Below, piece by piece: positions 2,950-10,700 of a DNA stretch of 64,000 bases (within the stretch, counting starts at the first letter, position 1; every line of letters starts with the position of its first letter). The position numbers and the translations under genes are program-made. The DNA is from Paracoccaceae bacterium (lineage in GTDB: Bacteria; Pseudomonadota; Alphaproteobacteria; Rhodobacterales; Rhodobacteraceae). The stretch covers positions 1 to 64,000 of the forward strand of contig JAUYQR010000011.1 in assembly GCA_030697175.1 (NCBI GenBank). Direction: 5' to 3'. The notes beneath the pieces were generated by a model. It ran no database searches and had not been told where the DNA came from. It saw only the letters and a list, made by a program, of their open reading frames with translations.

Positions 2950-4436
2950 TGCCCCAGCATCTTTCTCACGGCAGCAACAAGACCTGCGCGCGGCACCTCG
3001 ACCTGTGCAGGGCGATCCTTCCATTCCTCAAGCGTGGCGCTTTCAGCGATCCTGGCACCAAGGATCAGGTCCTTCAGAATCACCGTTCCCGCCGCCGCCT
3101 CGTTGCCCCCCTGGATCACCGCGATGGGGGACTGACGCTTGTCGGCATACTTCAACTGGTTGCCAAAGTTCTTCGGATTGCCAAGGTAGACCTCTGCCCG
3201 GATACCCGCCTGCCGCAGATCGCCGACCATTGCCATGTAATCCGCCATCCGCTCGCGGTCCATCACCGTCACCACGACCGGCCCGGTCGTCTCATCCTGG
3301 ACCCGGCCTTTGGCACGGAGCGCGGCCAGCAGCCGGTCCACGCCAATCGAGACACCCGTCGCCGGGACGTCCTGCCCGGTGAAGCGCTTGACGAGGCCAT
3401 CGTACCGGCCGCCCCCTGCAACCGAGCCGAACTGCCGCTTGCGACCCTTCTCGTCGAGGATCTCGAAGGTCAGCTCCGCCTCATAGACCGGCCCGGTGTA
3501 GTAGCCAAGGCCGCGGACGACGCCTGGGTCGATCACGATGCGGTCGGGTCCGTAGCCTTGTGCCGCCAGAAGGTCGGCTATCGACTCCAACTCCGCTACA
3601 CCTTCAGACCCGATGACCGAGGCGCCCACCAACTGACGCAGCCGGGCGACAGTCTCGCCCCCGCTCGCGCGCTTTGCGGCCATGAAACCCATGACGACCT
3701 CCACCTGCTCAGGACCAAGCCCTGCGCCCTTGGTGAAGTCGCCGCTGTCGTCCTTTCGGCCCTCGCCCAGCAGGGCGCGCACACCGGCGTCACCCAGCCG
3801 GTCAATCTTGTCGATGGCACGCAGGACGATGCCGCGTTCGGTTTGCTTGTCGTCGCCAGAAAGGCCCGCGACCTCCATCACACCGTTCAGGACCTTGCGG
3901 TTGTTGACCCTGACCACATAGTCGCCGCGGGGGATGCCGACGGTTTCCAGGGCGTCGGCCAGCATGGCGCAGATTTCGGCGTCAGCGGCGACGGAGGCGC
4001 TGCCCACCGTGTCAGCGTCGCACTGGTAGAACTGCCGGAAGCGGCCGGGGCCGGGCTTTTCGTTCCGCCAGACGGGGCCCATCGCGTAGCGGCGGTAGGG
4101 GCTGGGCAGGTCGTTGCGGTACTGGGCCGCGACGCGGGCGAGGGGGGCGGTCAGGTCGTAGCGGAGGGCGAGCCAGTCGGCGTCCCCCCCTTCTGACCCA
4201 GCTTCCTGCCAGGCGAACACGCCTTCGTTGGGGCGGTCGACGTCGGGGAGGAACTTGCCGAGGGCTTCGACGGTCTCGACGGCGCTGGTTTCCAGGGGGT
4301 CGAAGCCGTAGCGGTGGTAGACCTCGGCGATGGCGTCGAGCATGGCCTTGCGGGCCGTGACCTCGGCGCCGAAGTAATCGCGGAAACCCTTGGGGGTCTC
4401 GGCCCTCGGGCGGCGGGGGGATTTGTCGTTTGCCAT
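2946..4436 (-). CDS. hisS: Histidyl-tRNA synthetase
   Basis: Charges tRNA-His with histidine in the cytoplasm. The 496-residue protein has class II motifs: PKGFRDYFG near the start, the motif 2 region [19 protein letters not shown] with FYQCDAD, the histidine-binding motif [12 protein letters not shown], and [11 protein letters not shown] followed by GVSIGVDRL (motif 3). A C-terminal anticodon-binding domain follows. The start at 4436 ([10 protein letters not shown]) is preferred; the frame is open further upstream to 4793 but that stretch is proline-rich low-complexity sequence and would run through slyX. hisS is the first gene of the hisS-hisZ-hisG operon and is divergent from slyX across 74 bases that must hold both promoters. 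Confidence 0.96.
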
Positions 4437-4510
4437 CGGTGGGGCCCTTCGCCTATCGTCGCGGCCCCCGTGTATCGAATGGCCGGGGGGGCGGCAAGCG
4501 GGGGTGAGGG

Positions 4511-4711
4511 ATGGACCGGACCGAGGCACTGGAGGAAAAGATCGCCCACCTGACGCGGGCGGTGGAGGATCTGTCGGATGTGGTGGCTGCGCAGGGGCGG
4601 GAGATCGACCGGCTGACCCGGCTGGCGGCGATGCTGGCGGAAAGGGAAGCGGAGCGGGAAGCGGGGCTCGGGGATGCCCCGGCGGCCAACGTGAGGCCGC
4701 CGCATTGGTGA
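4511..4711 (+). CDS. slyX: SlyX family protein
   Basis: A 66-residue acidic protein predicted to be almost wholly a coiled coil (residues about 1-45, heptad-like [15 protein letters not shown]). It ends in the PPHW tail that, as PPHY/PPHW, characterises SlyX proteins. The molecular function of SlyX is unknown. A purine-rich ribosome binding site (GTGAGGG) sits just before the start. It is divergent from hisS and ends about 40 bases before the palindrome at 4753. Confidence 0.88.
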
Positions 4712-4752
4712 GGGGAGGCTTTGGGAGGCCGGGGCCGTTGGGCCAGCCGCCC

Positions 4753-4769
4753 TGTCCCACCGTGGGACA
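4753..4769. repeat. Second copy of the TGTCCCAC-C-GTGGGACA palindrome
   Basis: A 17-base palindrome with 8-base perfect arms, differing from 1160-1176 only in the central base. It sits between the convergent ends of slyX and the ATPase gene. No T-run follows on either strand, so a terminator role is less clear here than for the first copy. The two copies bracket the hisG-slyX block. Confidence 0.6.
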
Positions 4770-4820
4770 CTCGGGTGGGGTATGGGATATCAAGGGGTTA
4801 GTGGGTTTGGTAAGGGTTTG

Positions 4821-6629
4821 TTAAGATTCATCTGGAGCTAACGACCGTATCAAATCAAAAATACACGCAAAATGAGCAAAATCAGCTGCAATTCCGTTTT
4901 CGCATAGCCAGTCACAGAGGTTCCGCTTTTCAGCTGAATTTACGGACCATGTTTCAGGGACTACAACTCTTTGCCCTCTTGATGCCTGACCGTGCTCTTC
5001 GATAATATCAAAAAAAGCATTCTTAAACGCCCAAGCGCGATTTACTGTATCGTCAGAAAAAAGGTTCTCAATTCCAGTCGAAACTTTGTTTCGTTGCCTC
5101 GGAATTCTTCGCTTAAAAAGATTGCCGACCTCGTCTTCCTGTTTGTTGGTATCACAATCGTAAAGCAGAATCCAAGGTTGGGAAATCCTGCGGTGGAGCT
5201 GAGCAGCATAGGTATTCCAAATCTTGTCTAGGTATGGCGATCCGTTTACTTCTTCAATCTCAAATTTGCTTAGCAGATCCTCCTCGCCCAAGAGTTCCGC
5301 GGCACGGCGAATGTAACTTAGGTCCGTACTTCCTTCCACAAACAACACTGGCTTCACGAAATCTGACGTCCGTCGCAAAATTTCGCGCTCAAATGTTCCA
5401 GTTTCTTGAATGAACTTGAACGCAATTCCAAATTCTGTGAATCTTTCCGTGTCAATCTCATTTGCAGACGGCAGTTCCAATACTTGCATCCGCTCAGGGC
5501 CAAAAATCAGCCTTGCGCCCAACAGTAGAAGAGGAGAATGCGTTGATAAAACGAATTGTACCGAAGCAAATAGAGAAAGCAACTTGGGTAGAACGTCATG
5601 CTGCAAATCAGCGTGCAGGTGAAGGTCGATTTCATCGACAACGACCAATCCTTTCAACTCTGAAAGGTCCACTATCGCGTTGCCGCTAAAGTCGTAATCA
5701 CGAATTAAACTTAGGAATAAGTTAAGGACTGCAGTTTCTCCCGTTGAAAGCGCGAAGAGATTTCCGATTTCTTTAACCAGATCGTTTCCTTCATAGACAG
5801 AAAGTCCTATACTACGACTATTGCGCATACCAACTGACCAAACCACTCTGACCCTAGGAAAGCGAAGGACATTCTTCACCACCTCTTCTACGGCACTTAA
5901 TATGTTTGTAGCCGGCCCGGCACGATCCGAGTAAAATACCTTGCTCTCTTGGCTTCCGTTAAGAAACAAGTTGACCGGCTGTCGCTCTATAGTGAAGCTG
6001 TTGTAGATCAGGTCAAGCAACCAGTCTTGTATTCCTTTCATCGGAGAATATTGCACCAAGCTTCGCCCTGATGTGTTTGTAAAATTTTTCTTTCGGTGAT
6101 AATCGACTCTTCCGCGCAGGGCAATCTCGTTCAACCAAGCTGGCTCCTCAAACCGATTCGGTGGATAATAGAGATAACTCCCCGATGCTAAAGCACTTCG
6201 AACTTCGGCATTTGCCTGGTCGATATTGCTATCAATATGTGAGGAATCCAAAGGGCCAATTTCGTGCCATTTAGGGTAGTTCGGCGCCTCTCCAGTAAAG
6301 TCCTTTTTCTTTGTAGCAAGTTGAATTTCCGAGAGAAAGGCGCCATTGGTAAACTCCACCATTCCAGTCGAGTACGATCTGCCCTTTTTGATGTAGGCAG
6401 GACTTCGAAGTTTGAAAACCTTTTCAGTGTCCACGTCAGAATCTTCAAAAAAGGCCGACTGCGCACTCGCCATTGCATTGACGATATGGGCAAGGATAAT
6501 GCTCTTTCCAGAGCCATTTTGGCCCACAAGAAAGATCGGCAGCGGAAGTCCCTCTTCCGAGAACCGGGGACTAATATCAGCATACTCGATCGGCCCGTTG
6601 CCGGACACTATAACCTTAGACAAATACAT
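4821..6629 (-). CDS. AAA family ATPase with C-terminal TOPRIM/DUF4435-like domain
   Basis: A 602-residue SMC/ABC-type ATPase joined to a TOPRIM-like nuclease domain, an architecture seen in OLD-family and other phage-defence nucleases. Visible motifs: Walker A GQNGSGKS (residues 36-43), signature-like LSTGE (294-298), Walker B LVVVDEID (328-335) and the switch histidine in STHSP (362-366). In the C-terminal part are LFVEGSTD (429-436), holding the TOPRIM glutamate, and YDCD (490-493), holding the paired aspartates, then GIEN, as in DUF4435 proteins. The frame extends to 6683, but 6629 is chosen because TAAGGG lies just upstream. The gene is strikingly A+T-rich (bases 5041-5100 contain 23 G/C of 60) next to neighbours near two-thirds G/C, so it was probably acquired. 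No partner gene is adjacent. A role in DNA defence is inference from architecture. Confidence 0.85.
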   Translation of the reverse strand: MYLSKVIVSGNGPIEYADISPRFSEEGLPLPIFLVGQNGSGKSIILAHIVNAMASAQSAFFEDSDVDTEKVFKLRSPAYIKKGRSYSTGMVEFTNGAFLSEIQLATKKKDFTGEAPNYPKWHEIGPLDSSHIDSNIDQANAEVRSALASGSYLYYPPNRFEEPAWLNEIALRGRVDYHRKKNFTNTSGRSLVQYSPMKGIQDWLLDLIYNSFTIERQPVNLFLNGSQESKVFYSDRAGPATNILSAVEEVVKNVLRFPRVRVVWSVGMRNSRSIGLSVYEGNDLVKEIGNLFALSTGETAVLNLFLSLIRDYDFSGNAIVDLSELKGLVVVDEIDLHLHADLQHDVLPKLLSLFASVQFVLSTHSPLLLLGARLIFGPERMQVLELPSANEIDTERFTEFGIAFKFIQETGTFEREILRRTSDFVKPVLFVEGSTDLSYIRRAAELLGEEDLLSKFEIEEVNGSPYLDKIWNTYAAQLHRRISQPWILLYDCDTNKQEDEVGNLFKRRIPRQRNKVSTGIENLFSDDTVNRAWAFKNAFFDIIEEHGQASRGQRVVVPETWSVNSAEKRNLCDWLCENGIAADFAHFACIFDLIRSLAPDES

Positions 6630-6686
6630 TGTTGCCCTTACCGATATTACATCCGGATGCGCGGGCCGTGTATACAGTCTCAATAT

Positions 6687-6706
6687 TGTAGACCCGCTGT
6701 GTAGAC
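6687..6706. promoter_or_regulatory. Two direct TGTAGAC repeats upstream of the ATPase gene
   Basis: TGTAGAC occurs at 6687-6693 and 6700-6706, 13 bases apart, within the A+T-rich stretch 58-77 bases upstream of the ATPase start. The spacing and place suggest an operator or promoter element, but no regulator is encoded beside it. Confidence 0.25.
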
Positions 6707-6754
6707 TCTTGTTTATTGTTGGCCCGGAATCAAGGGCGAAGCCCGCCGGGCCGC

Positions 6755-6830
6755 GCTCTCCCTCCCCCCAGGGAGGGCGCTTTTGCGGCGTCGCCAGCAG
6801 AACTTCGGGGGGAGGGGTTGGGGGATAAAG
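6755..6830. repeat. G/C-rich intergenic hairpin repeat
   Basis: GCGCTCTCCCT, a C-rich loop and AGGGAGGGCGC pair with one wobble and are followed on the plus strand by TTTT. Downstream comes a GGGGGGAGGGGTTGGGGG stretch. A similar arrangement of CCCTCCCCC and GGGGGAGGGG occurs at 17748-17801. It lies between the ATPase gene and the ParB-like gene; bases 6630-6899 contain no gene. Confidence 0.45.
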
Positions 6831-6899
6831 TGCCTAGAACTGGCGGGGGGTGCGCCCGCCCGAGGGAGGGCGCGGCCCTGTGTGGTGCGGGGGGTGGGG

Positions 6900-7733
6900 T
6901 CAGCTTTGCTGGAACCAGCGCTCGATTTCGTCCAGCACATCGTCCACGAACCCTCCCCGCCGTGCCTCTGGCCCGGTAAACCGCAGCACCCAGCCTTCGC
7001 GGCAGGCTTCCCTTCGGATCGTCAGGCCTTGGCGCAGGTGCAGGAGCTTGCGGGGGCGGCCGGGGAGGGCTTCGGGGTCGGGTTTCTCGCCCAGTATCGG
7101 CAGCAGGCTGGACCATTGCAGGTCGAGCGCGTGGCCGGCGAGGGGGGTGAGGGTGGCGCGGATCAGATCCTCCATATCGCCCCTCAGGGCTGCGGCGAGG
7201 CGTTCCATGGCTCGAGTGGACAGCCGTTCGGGCGTGGTGAGGAGGCCGGTCAGCGCCTCGACCACCATCGCGAAGGCGCGCAGGCGCATGCGGGCCTGAC
7301 GGGCGAGGGCGGGGTAGAGGGCGGCCACGGCGGCGTCGGGGGTGGGGAAGTGGCCCTCCTCAACGCTCGCGATGATGAGGGCGCCTTTTTCCCACGGGGT
7401 GACGGGGGCGCGGATCTCGTTTTCCGTCACCATCGCGGCCATTGCGGCGGGGAGCGAGGCGGGGGTGCGGAGGAAGGCGGGGATGAGGCCAAGGCCGAGG
7501 GCGCGGGCGGCGGTGAGGCGGCGAAGGCCGGAGATCAGGCCGTAGAGGTGGGGCGGGCCGTCGGTCTGGGGACGCGGGGTGGTGAGGCGCCAGACCTCGA
7601 TCGGCGTGCGCAGGCCGTCGAGGAGGATCGAGGTTTGGAGTTCGGTGAGGCTGGTGGGGTCGAGGGTGGTGCGGTCGCGCAGGAGGGCGTGGGGGTCGAT
7701 CTCGGTCAGGGGGATCTGGATCAGGGGGTCCAT
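6900..7733 (-). CDS. ParB N-terminal domain protein (orphan)
   Basis: A 277-residue protein with an N-terminal ParB/Srx-like domain. Recognisable are the GLRTPIEV stretch, the arginine-rich ISGLRRLTAARALG (residues about 67-80, equivalent to the GxRR CTP-binding motif) and TENEIR (about 103-108, equivalent to ENxxR). A helical, probably DNA-binding segment follows. A strong ribosome binding site (AAAAAGGAG) fixes the start. No parA-type partner is adjacent; the gene lies between dnaE, about 65 bases upstream, and the ATPase island. Chromosomal ParB normally sits beside parA near the origin, so this is more likely a specialised paralogue. Base composition matches the host. Its DNA target and role are unknown. 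Confidence 0.75.
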   Translation of the reverse strand: MDPLIQIPLTEIDPHALLRDRTTLDPTSLTELQTSILLDGLRTPIEVWRLTTPRPQTDGPPHLYGLISGLRRLTAARALGLGLIPAFLRTPASLPAAMAAMVTENEIRAPVTPWEKGALIIASVEEGHFPTPDAAVAALYPALARQARMRLRAFAMVVEALTGLLTTPERLSTRAMERLAAALRGDMEDLIRATLTPLAGHALDLQWSSLLPILGEKPDPEALPGRPRKLLHLRQGLTIRREACREGWVLRFTGPEARRGGFVDDVLDEIERWFQQS

Positions 7734-7797
7734 CGGCGTGCTCCTTTTTCGGCAAGGAGACGCGGGGGGCGTTAAGGGCGGGTGAGGCGGGCGGGCG

Positions 7798-10700
7798 CTA
7801 CACCTCCTCCACCATCACGACGCCCTGGATCGCCTTGATGGCGGCGCGGATCTGGGGGGTGACGGGGTAGGTTTGCGGGAGGGGGATGTCGGCCTCGTGG
7901 CCTCCGTCGAAATGGGCGGTGAGGGTGAGGCGGGCGCGGGTGCGGCCTTCGAGTTTCGGGAGGAGGGTGAGGAGGGACTGGATCGCGGCGGGCTGGTTGA
8001 TGTGGATGCGGAGGTCCTGCGCGCCGGCCTGGTCCGCCACGGCGTCGATGGCCTGAACGTGGTTGGCGAGGAGTTTCAGGGTATCGCCCTCAAGCTCGGC
8101 CTTGACGGTGAGGACGACGTTGCGGCCGGGTTCGAGAAGGTCGCGGGAGGCTTCGAGCGTGTCGGAGAACACGGTGACTTCGTAAAGCCCGGTCGGGTCG
8201 GAGAGCGAGACGAAGGCGAAACGGTTGCCCTTGGCGGACTTGCGCTCCTGCCGGGCGGAGACGGAGCCGGCGAGTTTGGCGATGAGGGGGGCGCGTTCGG
8301 CCTTGGCGGTGAGGTCGGTGAGGGTGTCGACGCCCTTGCGTTTCAGGGCGGACATGTAGTCGTCGAGCGGGTGGCCGGAGAGGTAGAAGCCGATCGCCTG
8401 GTGTTCCTGGGTGAGGCGCTCGATGGCGAGCCAGTCATCGCGGAACGGCAGGCGGGGTTCGGGGATGTCGACGCCAGCCTCGCCGAAGAGGGAGACCTGG
8501 GTGGAGGATTTCGCCTCGTGGATCGCGGCGGAGTAGGCGACGAGGGGATCGAGCGCCTCGAACACGCGGGCGCGGTTGGGGTCGAGCTGGTCGAAGGCAC
8601 CGGCGCGGGCGAGCATTTCGAGCGAGCGCTTGCCGATGCGCTTGAGGTCCACGCGGCGGGCGAAATCGAAGAGGGTGGCGAAGGGTTTGTCGGCGCGGGC
8701 TTGCACGATCAACTGCATCGCGTCGACGCCGACGTTTTTCAAGGCACCGAGGCCGTAGACGAGGGCACCGTCGCGCACGGTGAAGGTGGCGAGGGAGGCG
8801 TTGACGCAGGGCGCGATGGTCTTGATGCCCAGCTTGTCGACCTCGCGCTTGTAGACGGCAAGCTTGTCGGTGAGGTGGAGGTCGCAGTTCATCACGGCGG
8901 CCATGAATTCGGCTGGATAGTTCGCCTTGAGGTAGGCGGTCTGGTAGCTGACCACGGCGTAGGCGGCGGCGTGGGATTTGTTGAAACCGTAGTTGGCGAA
9001 TTTCTCCAGAAGGTCGAACACTTCGCCAGCCTTCCTGGCGTCGATGTTGTGGGTGGCCTTGGCGCCTTCAATGAATTTCGGGCGTTCCTTGGCCATCTCC
9101 TCGGCGATCTTCTTGCCCATCGCGCGGCGCAGAAGGTCGGCACCGCCAAGGGAATAGCCCGCCATGACCTGCGCGATCTGCATCACCTGTTCTTGGTAAA
9201 CGATGATGCCCTGGGTCTCGGCGAGGATGTGGTCAATGGTGGGATGGATCGATTCAAGGTCGCGCAGGCCGTTCTTGACCTCGCAATAGGCGGGGATGTT
9301 TTCCATCGGGCCGGGGCGGTAGAGCGCCACCAAAGCCACGATATCCTCGATGCAGGTCGGCTTCATGCGCCGAAGCGCGTCCATCATGCCGGAGCTTTCC
9401 ACCTGAAACACGGCGACGGTCTTGGCGGCGGCGTAAAGCTCGTAACTGGGCTTGTCGTCGAGAGGGATCAGATTGATGTCAAACTTGATGCCACGCAGCG
9501 CCAGAAGGTCCATCGCGTTCTGGATCACGGTCAGGGTCTTGAGGCCCAGAAAGTCGAACTTCACCAGACCGGCGGCTTCGACCCATTTCATGTTGAACTG
9601 GGTCGCGGGCATGTCGGAGCGCGGGTCTTGGTAAAGCGGCACCAACTGGTCAAGCGGGCGGTCGCCGATCACGACACCGGCGGCGTGGGTGGAGGCGTTG
9701 CGATAGAGGCCTTCGATCTGGGCGGCATAGTCGAGAAGGCGGCCCACCACCTCTTCCTTCGCGGCTTCGCGCAGGCGCGGTTCATCGGCCAAGGCCTTGG
9801 TGATCGACACCGGCTTCACGCCTTCGACCGGGATCATCTTCGACAGCCGGTCCACCTGCCCGTAGGACATCTGCAAGACGCGGCCCACGTCGCGCACGGC
9901 GGCCTTGGAGAGCAAGGCGCCGAAGGTGATGATCTGGCCCACCTTGTCGCGGCCATAGCGGTCTTGCACGTAACGGATCACCTCTTCGCGGCGGTCCATG
10001 CAGAAGTCGATGTCGAAGTCGGGCATCGAGACGCGTTCGGGGTTCAGGAAGCGTTCAAACAGCAAGGCGTAGCGCAAAGGGTCGAGGTCGGTGATGGTGA
10101 GGGCGTAGGCGACGAGGCTGCCCGCGCCCGACCCCCGGCCCGGACCGACGGGAATGTTGTGATCCTTGGCCCATTTGATGAAGTCGGCCACGATCAGGAA
10201 ATAACCGGGGAAACCCATCTTTTCGATGATGCCCAGTTCGAAATCGAGCCGGGCCTGATACTCCTCGCGCGTGGCCGAGGGGGTGATGACGGCAAGCCGC
10301 GCGTTCAGCCCTTCGTTGGCCTGACGGCGCAACTCGTTGACCTCGTCATCGGCGAATTTCGGCAGGATCGGCGCGCGCTTCTTGGCGGCAAAGGCGCAGC
10401 GGCGGGCAATCTCCACCGTGTTTTCCAGCGCCTCGGGCAGATCGGCAAAAAGCGCGCACATTTCGGCTTCGGTCTTGAAATAGTGCTGCGGGGTCAGGCG
10501 GCGGCGGGGCTGCTGCTGATCGACATAGGCGCCTTCGGCGATGCAGATCAGGGCATCGTGCGCCTGATACATCTCGGCCTTGATGAAGTAGACATCGTTG
10601 GTGGCGACCAGCGGCAAGCCGAATTCGTAAGCGAGTTCGACCGCGCCGCGTTCGGCCAGCGCCTCGGCCTCGGGCAACTGCCCGCCGGGGCCGGGGTGGC

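Follow-up and report, generated by a model that had tools for sequence, protein, structure and literature searches.

We describe a gene for a 602-residue protein in a stretch of 64,000 nucleotides from a Paracoccaceae bacterium (assembly GCA_030697175.1, contig JAUYQR010000011.1, positions 1 to 64,000; "the window" hereafter means this whole stretch), whose product joins, as judged from sequence and structure models, a PtuA-type ABC ATPase to a Toprim domain of the kind found in type I-C retron effectors. Our favored reading, to which we give a probability of about 0.6, is that this ATPase-Toprim gene is a one-gene abortive-infection system in which an ATPase sensor would control a Toprim ribonuclease (RNase) with no retron involved, and that it was acquired as cargo. 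Its foreign look, the kinship of its ATPase and Toprim halves with known phage defenses, and its location at a site that in relatives holds other genes, some of them for defense, make it a probable anti-phage suicide switch that works on its own. A defensive role as such we consider very likely.

An ATPase and a Toprim domain in one chain

The open reading frame (ORF) runs on the minus strand from an ATG at 6629 to a stop at 4821, and the only match to its product in its own 3.67-Mb assembly was the protein itself. The original prediction, made from the letters of the window, had listed Walker A, LSTGE, Walker B, STHSP, LFVEGSTD, and YDCD motifs in a 602-residue protein; all of them are present (STHSP begins at residue 362), together with an additional GIENLF motif, and the ATPase-Toprim fusion that it proposed is borne out by the family matches below. 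The gene and its parts are as follows:

4821-6629, minus strand: ATPase-Toprim gene, 602 aa, ATG start, stop codon counted in
5415-6629, minus strand: ABC/SMC-type ATPase domain, residues 1-405, PtuA-like by Pfam, PADLOC, and fold comparison
6501-6524, minus strand: Walker A motif GQNGSGKS in the sequence, residues 36-43 (K42)
5736-5750, minus strand: ABC signature motif LSTGE in the sequence, residues 294-298
5625-5648, minus strand: Walker B motif LVVVDEID in the sequence, residues 328-335
4824-5360, minus strand: C-terminal Toprim domain, about residues 424-602, retron I-C (Eco2)-like, with a domain model at a predicted local distance difference test score (pLDDT) of 91.1
5322-5345, minus strand: Toprim motif 1, LFVEGSTD, starting at residue 429 (E432, D436), aligned to E374 and D378 of Eco2
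5151-5168, minus strand: Toprim DxD motif, LLYDCD, starting at residue 488 (D491, D493), aligned to D460 and D462 of Eco2
5058-5075, minus strand: GIENLF, starting at residue 519 (G519, E521), probable counterpart of the metal-B residues S513 and E515 of Eco2
4926-4928, minus strand: K568, probable counterpart of the catalytic lysine K562 of Eco2

The N-terminal domain is, by sequence and model comparison, a PtuA-type ABC ATPase. AAA_21 (58.4 bits) and AAA_15 (36.7 bits, cut-off 32.1) of Pfam both matched over their cut-offs, the best PADLOC models for the protein were those of PtuA (79.9 bits), and the PtuA models matched all eight members of protein alignment A3 at 1e-8. An AlphaFold2 model built from eight sequences (pLDDT 78.4, with values <50 at residues 158-198 and in three shorter stretches) was closest, in VIA fold comparisons, to PtuA of retron Ec78 (9nnb_F; Z 25.1 over 327 residues, root-mean-square deviation [rmsd] 4.0), followed by PtuA of Ec83 (Z 25.0) and of Septu (Z 24.3), so that PtuA as found in type I-A retrons (Ec78, Ec83) and in Septu was the best match to this ATPase in both sequence and fold. 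PtuA systems have an HNH partner, PtuB, whereas the gene described here has no PtuB beside it and no reverse transcriptase (RT) match, and carries a fused Toprim instead.

The C-terminal Toprim domain, again by sequence and structure model, has its nearest kin in the effectors of type I-C retrons (Eco2), ahead of the OLD, GajA, and PARIS sequences and structures compared. Each of six PADLOC RT-Toprim_I-C models was matched by 8-9 of 12 C-terminal domains (best E 6.3e-9), a Foldseek search with the domain model returned retron Eco2 as its sole match at E<=0.001 (6.7e-5), and VIA superposed the Toprim on that of Eco2 at Z 10.3 (162 residues, rmsd 3.4, 24% identity). The first four acidic residues (E432, D436, D491, and D493) were paired with those of Eco2 by HMMER alignment, and the complete acidic and lysine set, which adds E521 and K568, was identical in 15 of 15 sequences (11 domains and four RT-Toprims), though the equation of E521 and K568 with Eco2 E515 and K562 is at the level of the family only, because Eco2 itself lay outside this 15-sequence alignment. 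Retron Eco2 (Ec67, type I-C) resembles the window protein in its Toprim, gives the best profile and fold match, and shares six catalytic residues; it differs in having an RT where the window protein has its ATPase, and in the serine S513, which the window protein lacks. The isolated Eco2 Toprim is reported to be toxic and to be an RNase, whose activity is strongly lowered by alanine at E374 or D378 (PMC12405507).

The likeness to OLD and GajA raised in the original prediction holds for the fold and gives way where the nearest kin of the Toprim is concerned. A one-gene ATPase-Toprim DNase of the OLD/GajA type, degrading or nicking phage DNA and not the RNA of host or phage, is the leading alternative, and we regard it as unlikely. 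The Toprim fold does resemble those of OLD and GajA (Z 8.2 for both), the Pfam family OLD-like_TOPRIM matched 7 of the 12 C-terminal domains at E<=1 (best 6e-5), and class 1 OLD proteins act as nucleases encoded by one gene (PMC10568477). The present protein likewise comes from a single gene, with an AAA_15 ATPase and no partner among its neighbors; class 1 OLD, GajA, and the effector of type I-B retrons (Eco8) all combine an ATPase and a Toprim in one chain, as here. Against this, the window copy stayed under the OLD-like_TOPRIM cut-off of 23.2 (18.8 for the whole protein and 21.3 for the domain). It differs from class 1 OLD, GajA, and the Eco8 effector in a Toprim nearer Eco2 and in having no GajB-like or RT neighbor. 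When hhalign was run with a single sequence for each of the families compared, which is a fairer comparison than that with a four-sequence RT-Toprim profile (95.9%, E 5.7e-9), it favored RT-Toprim (90.1%, E 1.6e-6) over OLD (16.6%, E 0.0015) and AriAB (0.9%).

Improbable, by comparison, is a diverged one-gene PARIS, i.e., an AriAB fusion that would sense an anti-restriction protein such as Ocr and cut transfer RNA (tRNA). PARIS (AriA plus AriB, sometimes fused) has a logic in common with the window protein, an ATPase sensor with a Toprim nuclease, and its fused form is on record (PMC9122126); further, the window protein scored 52.5 bits with the AriA model and Z 16-17 with the AriA fold, and its Toprim reached Z 8.0 with PARIS chain 8ux9_A, taken as AriB by inference from its length. 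However, PtuA outscores AriA in sequence and in fold, the hhalign value for the one AriAB Toprim is the lowest of the three, and both halves of the protein are nearer other families. Among the 3 of 59 candidates that were scored in the genome of this bacterium, none matched the AriAB fusion model at E<=1e-40; one of the 12 C-terminal domains, which was not that of the window, matched AriAB at 0.0023. DUF4435, to which the C-terminus had originally been likened, is absent: PF14491 found no match at E<=1 in the window protein or in any of the 12 C-terminal domains, and that identity was ruled out.

One-gene ATPase-Toprim defense is already known from OLD proteins, PARIS fusions, and HEC-04/IbfA (PMC10568477, PMC9122126, PMC12111858), the last of which is reported, as IbfA, to act against phages (PMC12111858). 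IbfA (518 aa) and HEC-04 have the same one-gene architecture, with a different length, and HEC-04 was absent among the best 25 of 35 PADLOC matches at 1e-8; the window gene may be a branch of the IbfA/HEC-04 group. Searches of open-licence PubMed Central papers listed no description of a retron-free protein in which an Eco2-type Toprim is joined to an ATPase of the PtuA type.

A ParB-slyX site with different cargo in close relatives

The gene stands out from its surroundings, as the A+T-rich block of the original prediction implied: its guanine-plus-cytosine (GC) content is 0.456, versus 0.670 for the window minus the gene and its 200-bp flanks on each side, and among 500-bp segments taken at 250-bp steps over the 64 kb (mean 0.663, standard deviation 0.052) only seven, with starts from 4751 to 6251, fell below 0.5. 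Its supposed place between housekeeping genes was right for one side, where slyX and hisS lie, whereas on the other a ParB_N-like gene precedes dnaE (the latter named from its sequence, without a profile run). The elements bordering the gene are the following:

4511-4711, plus strand: slyX, SlyX 70.7 bits, one border of the cargo site
4753-4769: 17-bp palindrome with 8-bp arms and a C or G center, a copy of a genome-wide repeat and not a part of the island
4770-4820: intergenic stretch directly past the stop, partly conserved with L002 (see below), the downstream cargo boundary
6900-7733, minus strand: ParB_N-like gene, ParB_N 25.6 bits, slightly under the cut-off of 26.3, bordering the cargo site

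Neither a PtuB HNH gene nor a GajB helicase gene is among these window neighbors (SlyX, ParB_N-like). A retron was rejected: RVT_1 had no match at E<=0.001 anywhere in the assembly, and there is no RT domain in the protein either. An Rfam search of window positions 4400-8000 at E<=1 gave whalefall-1 as its sole match, at 17.1 bits versus a gathering score of 37.

The pattern that the original prediction named as refuting it, presence at this place in all close relatives with normal base composition, was not what the slyX region showed: the gene was found in 0 of 20 relatives in the stretches read around slyX. In 14 of these relatives slyX lies near dnaE, with 16-5,800 bp between them (<70 bp in three), and in the other six dnaE falls outside the stretch. 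Signs of horizontal acquisition come from two loci that are close relatives of each other. The first, L002, belongs to a Rhodobacteraceae metagenome-assembled genome (MAG) and holds a 55%-identical and equally A+T-rich copy between ParB and slyX, in the same order as the window (ParB, ATPase-Toprim, slyX, hisS, hisZ), with no dnaE beside ParB within the 17.8 kb examined. The second, L133 of genome G580, matches the flanks of L002 with 86.8% DNA identity over 983 bp before the cargo and 84.0% over 3,559 bp after it; between those flanks, the place taken by the ATPase-Toprim gene in L002 is occupied in L133 by two unrelated ORFs with GC of 0.47-0.50. Thus, one ParB-slyX site carries different A+T-rich cargo in two close relatives. 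Third-codon identity between the window and L002, which is also swayed by base composition, was 0.34 for the ATPase-Toprim gene, 0.59 for parB, and 0.64 for hisS; because of this low value and the other cargo in G580, simple vertical descent from an insertion common to the window and L002 appears doubtful from the sequences.

The ParB-like family was sampled at 14 loci in 13 genomes (L133-L146), being 14 of the 15 best places outside the window (G458 was left out for its short contig), with crude ORF calling around ParB. A+T-rich genes often lie downstream of these homologues, e.g., HEC-06 at L134 (PADLOC, 1e-160), GmrSD_N/NsnA at L136, a SocA/Panacea antitoxin at L141 (Pfam), and an OLD gene at L145. 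The cargo annotation covered 10 of 11 prepared proteins (the L143 gene was left out), and the six loci with low GC downstream, besides the window and L002, comprise three with PADLOC matches at 1e-8 (HEC-06, NsnA, and Old), one with Panacea, and two unmatched. A 500-bp stretch with GC <0.53 within 2.5 kb of ParB occurred downstream at 8 of 16 loci and upstream at 2 of 16 (6 of 14 and 2 of 14 when the window and L002 are set aside), an enrichment that is exploratory because the 0.53 threshold was picked after the pattern had been noticed. These data support, and do not prove, that the ParB-linked site is a cargo hotspot for defense genes, which we regard as possible; a literature search found no description of a ParB-linked defense hotspot. 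The ParB-like gene was rejected as an obligate partner, since no L133-L146 homologue has an adjacent ATPase-Toprim gene among the listed ORFs. Separately, A+T-rich ORFs at L135 (5771-7546) and L133 (4036-5324), for which neither Pfam (at 0.001) nor PADLOC (at 1e-8) gave a match, are candidate defense genes of unknown kind.

The palindrome that had been placed at the edge of the island does exist, but it occurs in 62 exact copies genome-wide with a C or G center (65 with any 3-base center), one more of them in the window at 1160-1176, and therefore marks no insertion edge; as an island boundary it was ruled out. No copy was found in a reversed-pattern control or in the 40 other genomes searched. 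At 18 of its sites (including L108-L123), processed with a crude ORF caller, 12 copies lay outside ORFs, six of those between converging ORFs, and at many sites an AACCC-N-TTGA-like motif was seen by eye ~20 nt to one side. The palindrome has the look of a terminator-like or repeat element peculiar to this lineage. Different palindromes occupy the homologous place past slyX in L002 (~9890-9910) and L133 (~5440-5460), the core of the former being present in 11 copies in its own genome and three in G580, and the palindrome may therefore be replaced as a family in each lineage.

Relatives and mobile carriage

Full-length or near-full-length relatives were found in Rhodobacteraceae, Rhodocyclaceae, Pseudidiomarina, Alcanivorax, Methylovulum, Sulfuricurvum, Nitrospirota, and a verrucomicrobial MAG, the copy in the last being interrupted by an ORF that we take to be a transposase. 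Six copies (L003-L007 and L009) are mutually 64-78% identical and represent three phyla. Plasmid copies occur in Acetobacter, Leptolyngbya, and Acinetobacter (3 of 72,556 records at 80% cover), and two IMG/VR contigs have genes of 594 and 591 aa, one of which directly adjoins a phage integrase gene; homologues are thus partly on plasmids or predicted prophages. A phage collection of 50,697 records yielded four partial matches and none at 80% cover, a whole-protein alignment query of viral contigs yielded seven partial relatives, and eight PHROGs families matched, mostly in the ATPase part and all of unknown function, with phrog_4747 covering residues 306-510. In a sparse genome sampling, the gene was present in 4 of 398 genomes of its own phylum (own included, E<=1e-30) and in 1 of 385 of its own class (its own only, E<=1e-25), and its GC was below that of its flanks in all 15 copies measured, a comparison made without L008, whose gene is interrupted, L010, which has only the C-terminal domain, and L013, which is partial. 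This patchy distribution, low GC, and carriage by plasmids and prophages support horizontal acquisition.

The neighborhoods of homologues, annotated with profiles at L004, L006, L014, and L085 and by eye from ORF lists elsewhere, include conflict-type genes at two homologues, namely an OLD gene near that of L006 and PRTase-CE, NADAR, and kinase genes near that of L004. Two variants of the architecture were also seen. A Poribacteria MAG (L010, 7260-8546) encodes a TIR-(TPR-like)-Toprim protein of 429 aa whose Toprim is of the type seen in the window gene, its TPR-like stretch being under the Pfam cut-off. The more distant relatives L011, L012, and L013 have a related ATPase with a longer and different C-terminal domain (FDFDD or FDRDE plus SIEHYF/Y motifs), apparently a different kind of Toprim joined to this ATPase.

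The least probable alternative, a gene that mobile elements have spread and whose accessory role lies in housekeeping, repair, or addiction and not in defense, could draw on a defense function that is so far a prediction, many solitary copies, and an archaeal OLD-family ATPase that acts in the cell cycle (PMC12796447), but is opposed by the scarcity of the gene in its class and phylum, its plasmid and prophage carriage, the cargo exchange, and the TIR fusion.

Predicted action and what it would mean

The one-gene abortive-infection system that we favor would operate as follows. The PtuA/AriA-type ATPase would oligomerize, hold the C-terminal Toprim nuclease in check, and sense some sign of phage infection; once triggered, the Toprim would cut RNA, perhaps tRNA, at a two-metal active site made up of E432, D436, D491, D493, E521, and K568, and this cleavage would halt translation or growth and, with it, the phage. 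No reverse transcriptase, HNH, or helicase partner would be required, in keeping with the single-gene defense system originally suggested as a possibility, and the gene would have arrived as cargo at the ParB-slyX exchange site. Restraint of the Toprim by the ATPase until infection is proposed because of the analogy with AriA/AriB of PARIS and with Eco2; in PARIS, AriB is released upon infection. Before that point, the AriA hexamer is reported to sequester the tRNase AriB (PMC12409363), in Eco2 a Toprim held under restraint works as an RNase (PMC12405507), and in Eco7 a PtuA-type ATPase serves a tRNA-depleting effector (PMC11555353). If the gene is indeed defensive, RNA would be a reasonably likely substrate.

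Several points weigh against this reading. All functional claims for the window gene are predictions from sequence and models. The window copy on its own matched the RT-Toprim_I-C models modestly (best E 6.6e-4), and Eco2, though ranked first in a profile search of PDB sequences, had an E of only 0.037. Its fold lead over OLD, GajA, and PARIS is only ~2 Z units, and DNA is cut by GajA (PMC12405507) as well as by OLD, so the substrate is not fixed. The seventh active-site residue of Eco2, S513, is like the others needed for defense (PMC12405507), and its counterpart is no serine, being G519 here and D, A, C, or T in the four RT-Toprims. Among related systems, no drop in tRNA is reported for Eco4 PtuAB and an action on DNA for Septu PtuAB (PMC11555353), the Toprim of the stand-alone OLD protein YbjD of E. 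coli is reported to be dispensable (PMC13261556), and the similar one-gene IbfA is reported to raise early and reduce late phage transcription, with RNA cleavage unclaimed in the abstract and passages considered (PMC12111858). As for genomic context, conflict-type neighbors accompany only some homologues, and the GC asymmetry between the two sides of ParB, over 16 loci including the window and L002, gave a Fisher p of 0.054 and a Wilcoxon p of 0.018.

More broadly, and tentatively, at a little under even odds, the gene may represent a retron-free family that unites the ATPase of type I-A retrons and Septu with the Toprim RNase of type I-C in one 600-aa protein, which would mean that retron effectors are interchangeable modules and can also work under protein-only control, with the ATPase taking over the sensing role of multicopy single-stranded DNA (msDNA) in Eco2, and that the family rides a ParB-linked defense hotspot in Rhodobacteraceae-like bacteria. 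If the abortive-infection reading is true, the Toprim killer domain of Eco2 is used without a retron and under an ATPase switch, its trigger can be studied apart from msDNA, and the family bears on why the Toprims of some immune systems cut RNA and those of others DNA. The ParB-linked site, finally, offers a concrete place in related alphaproteobacteria in which to seek further unknown defense genes.

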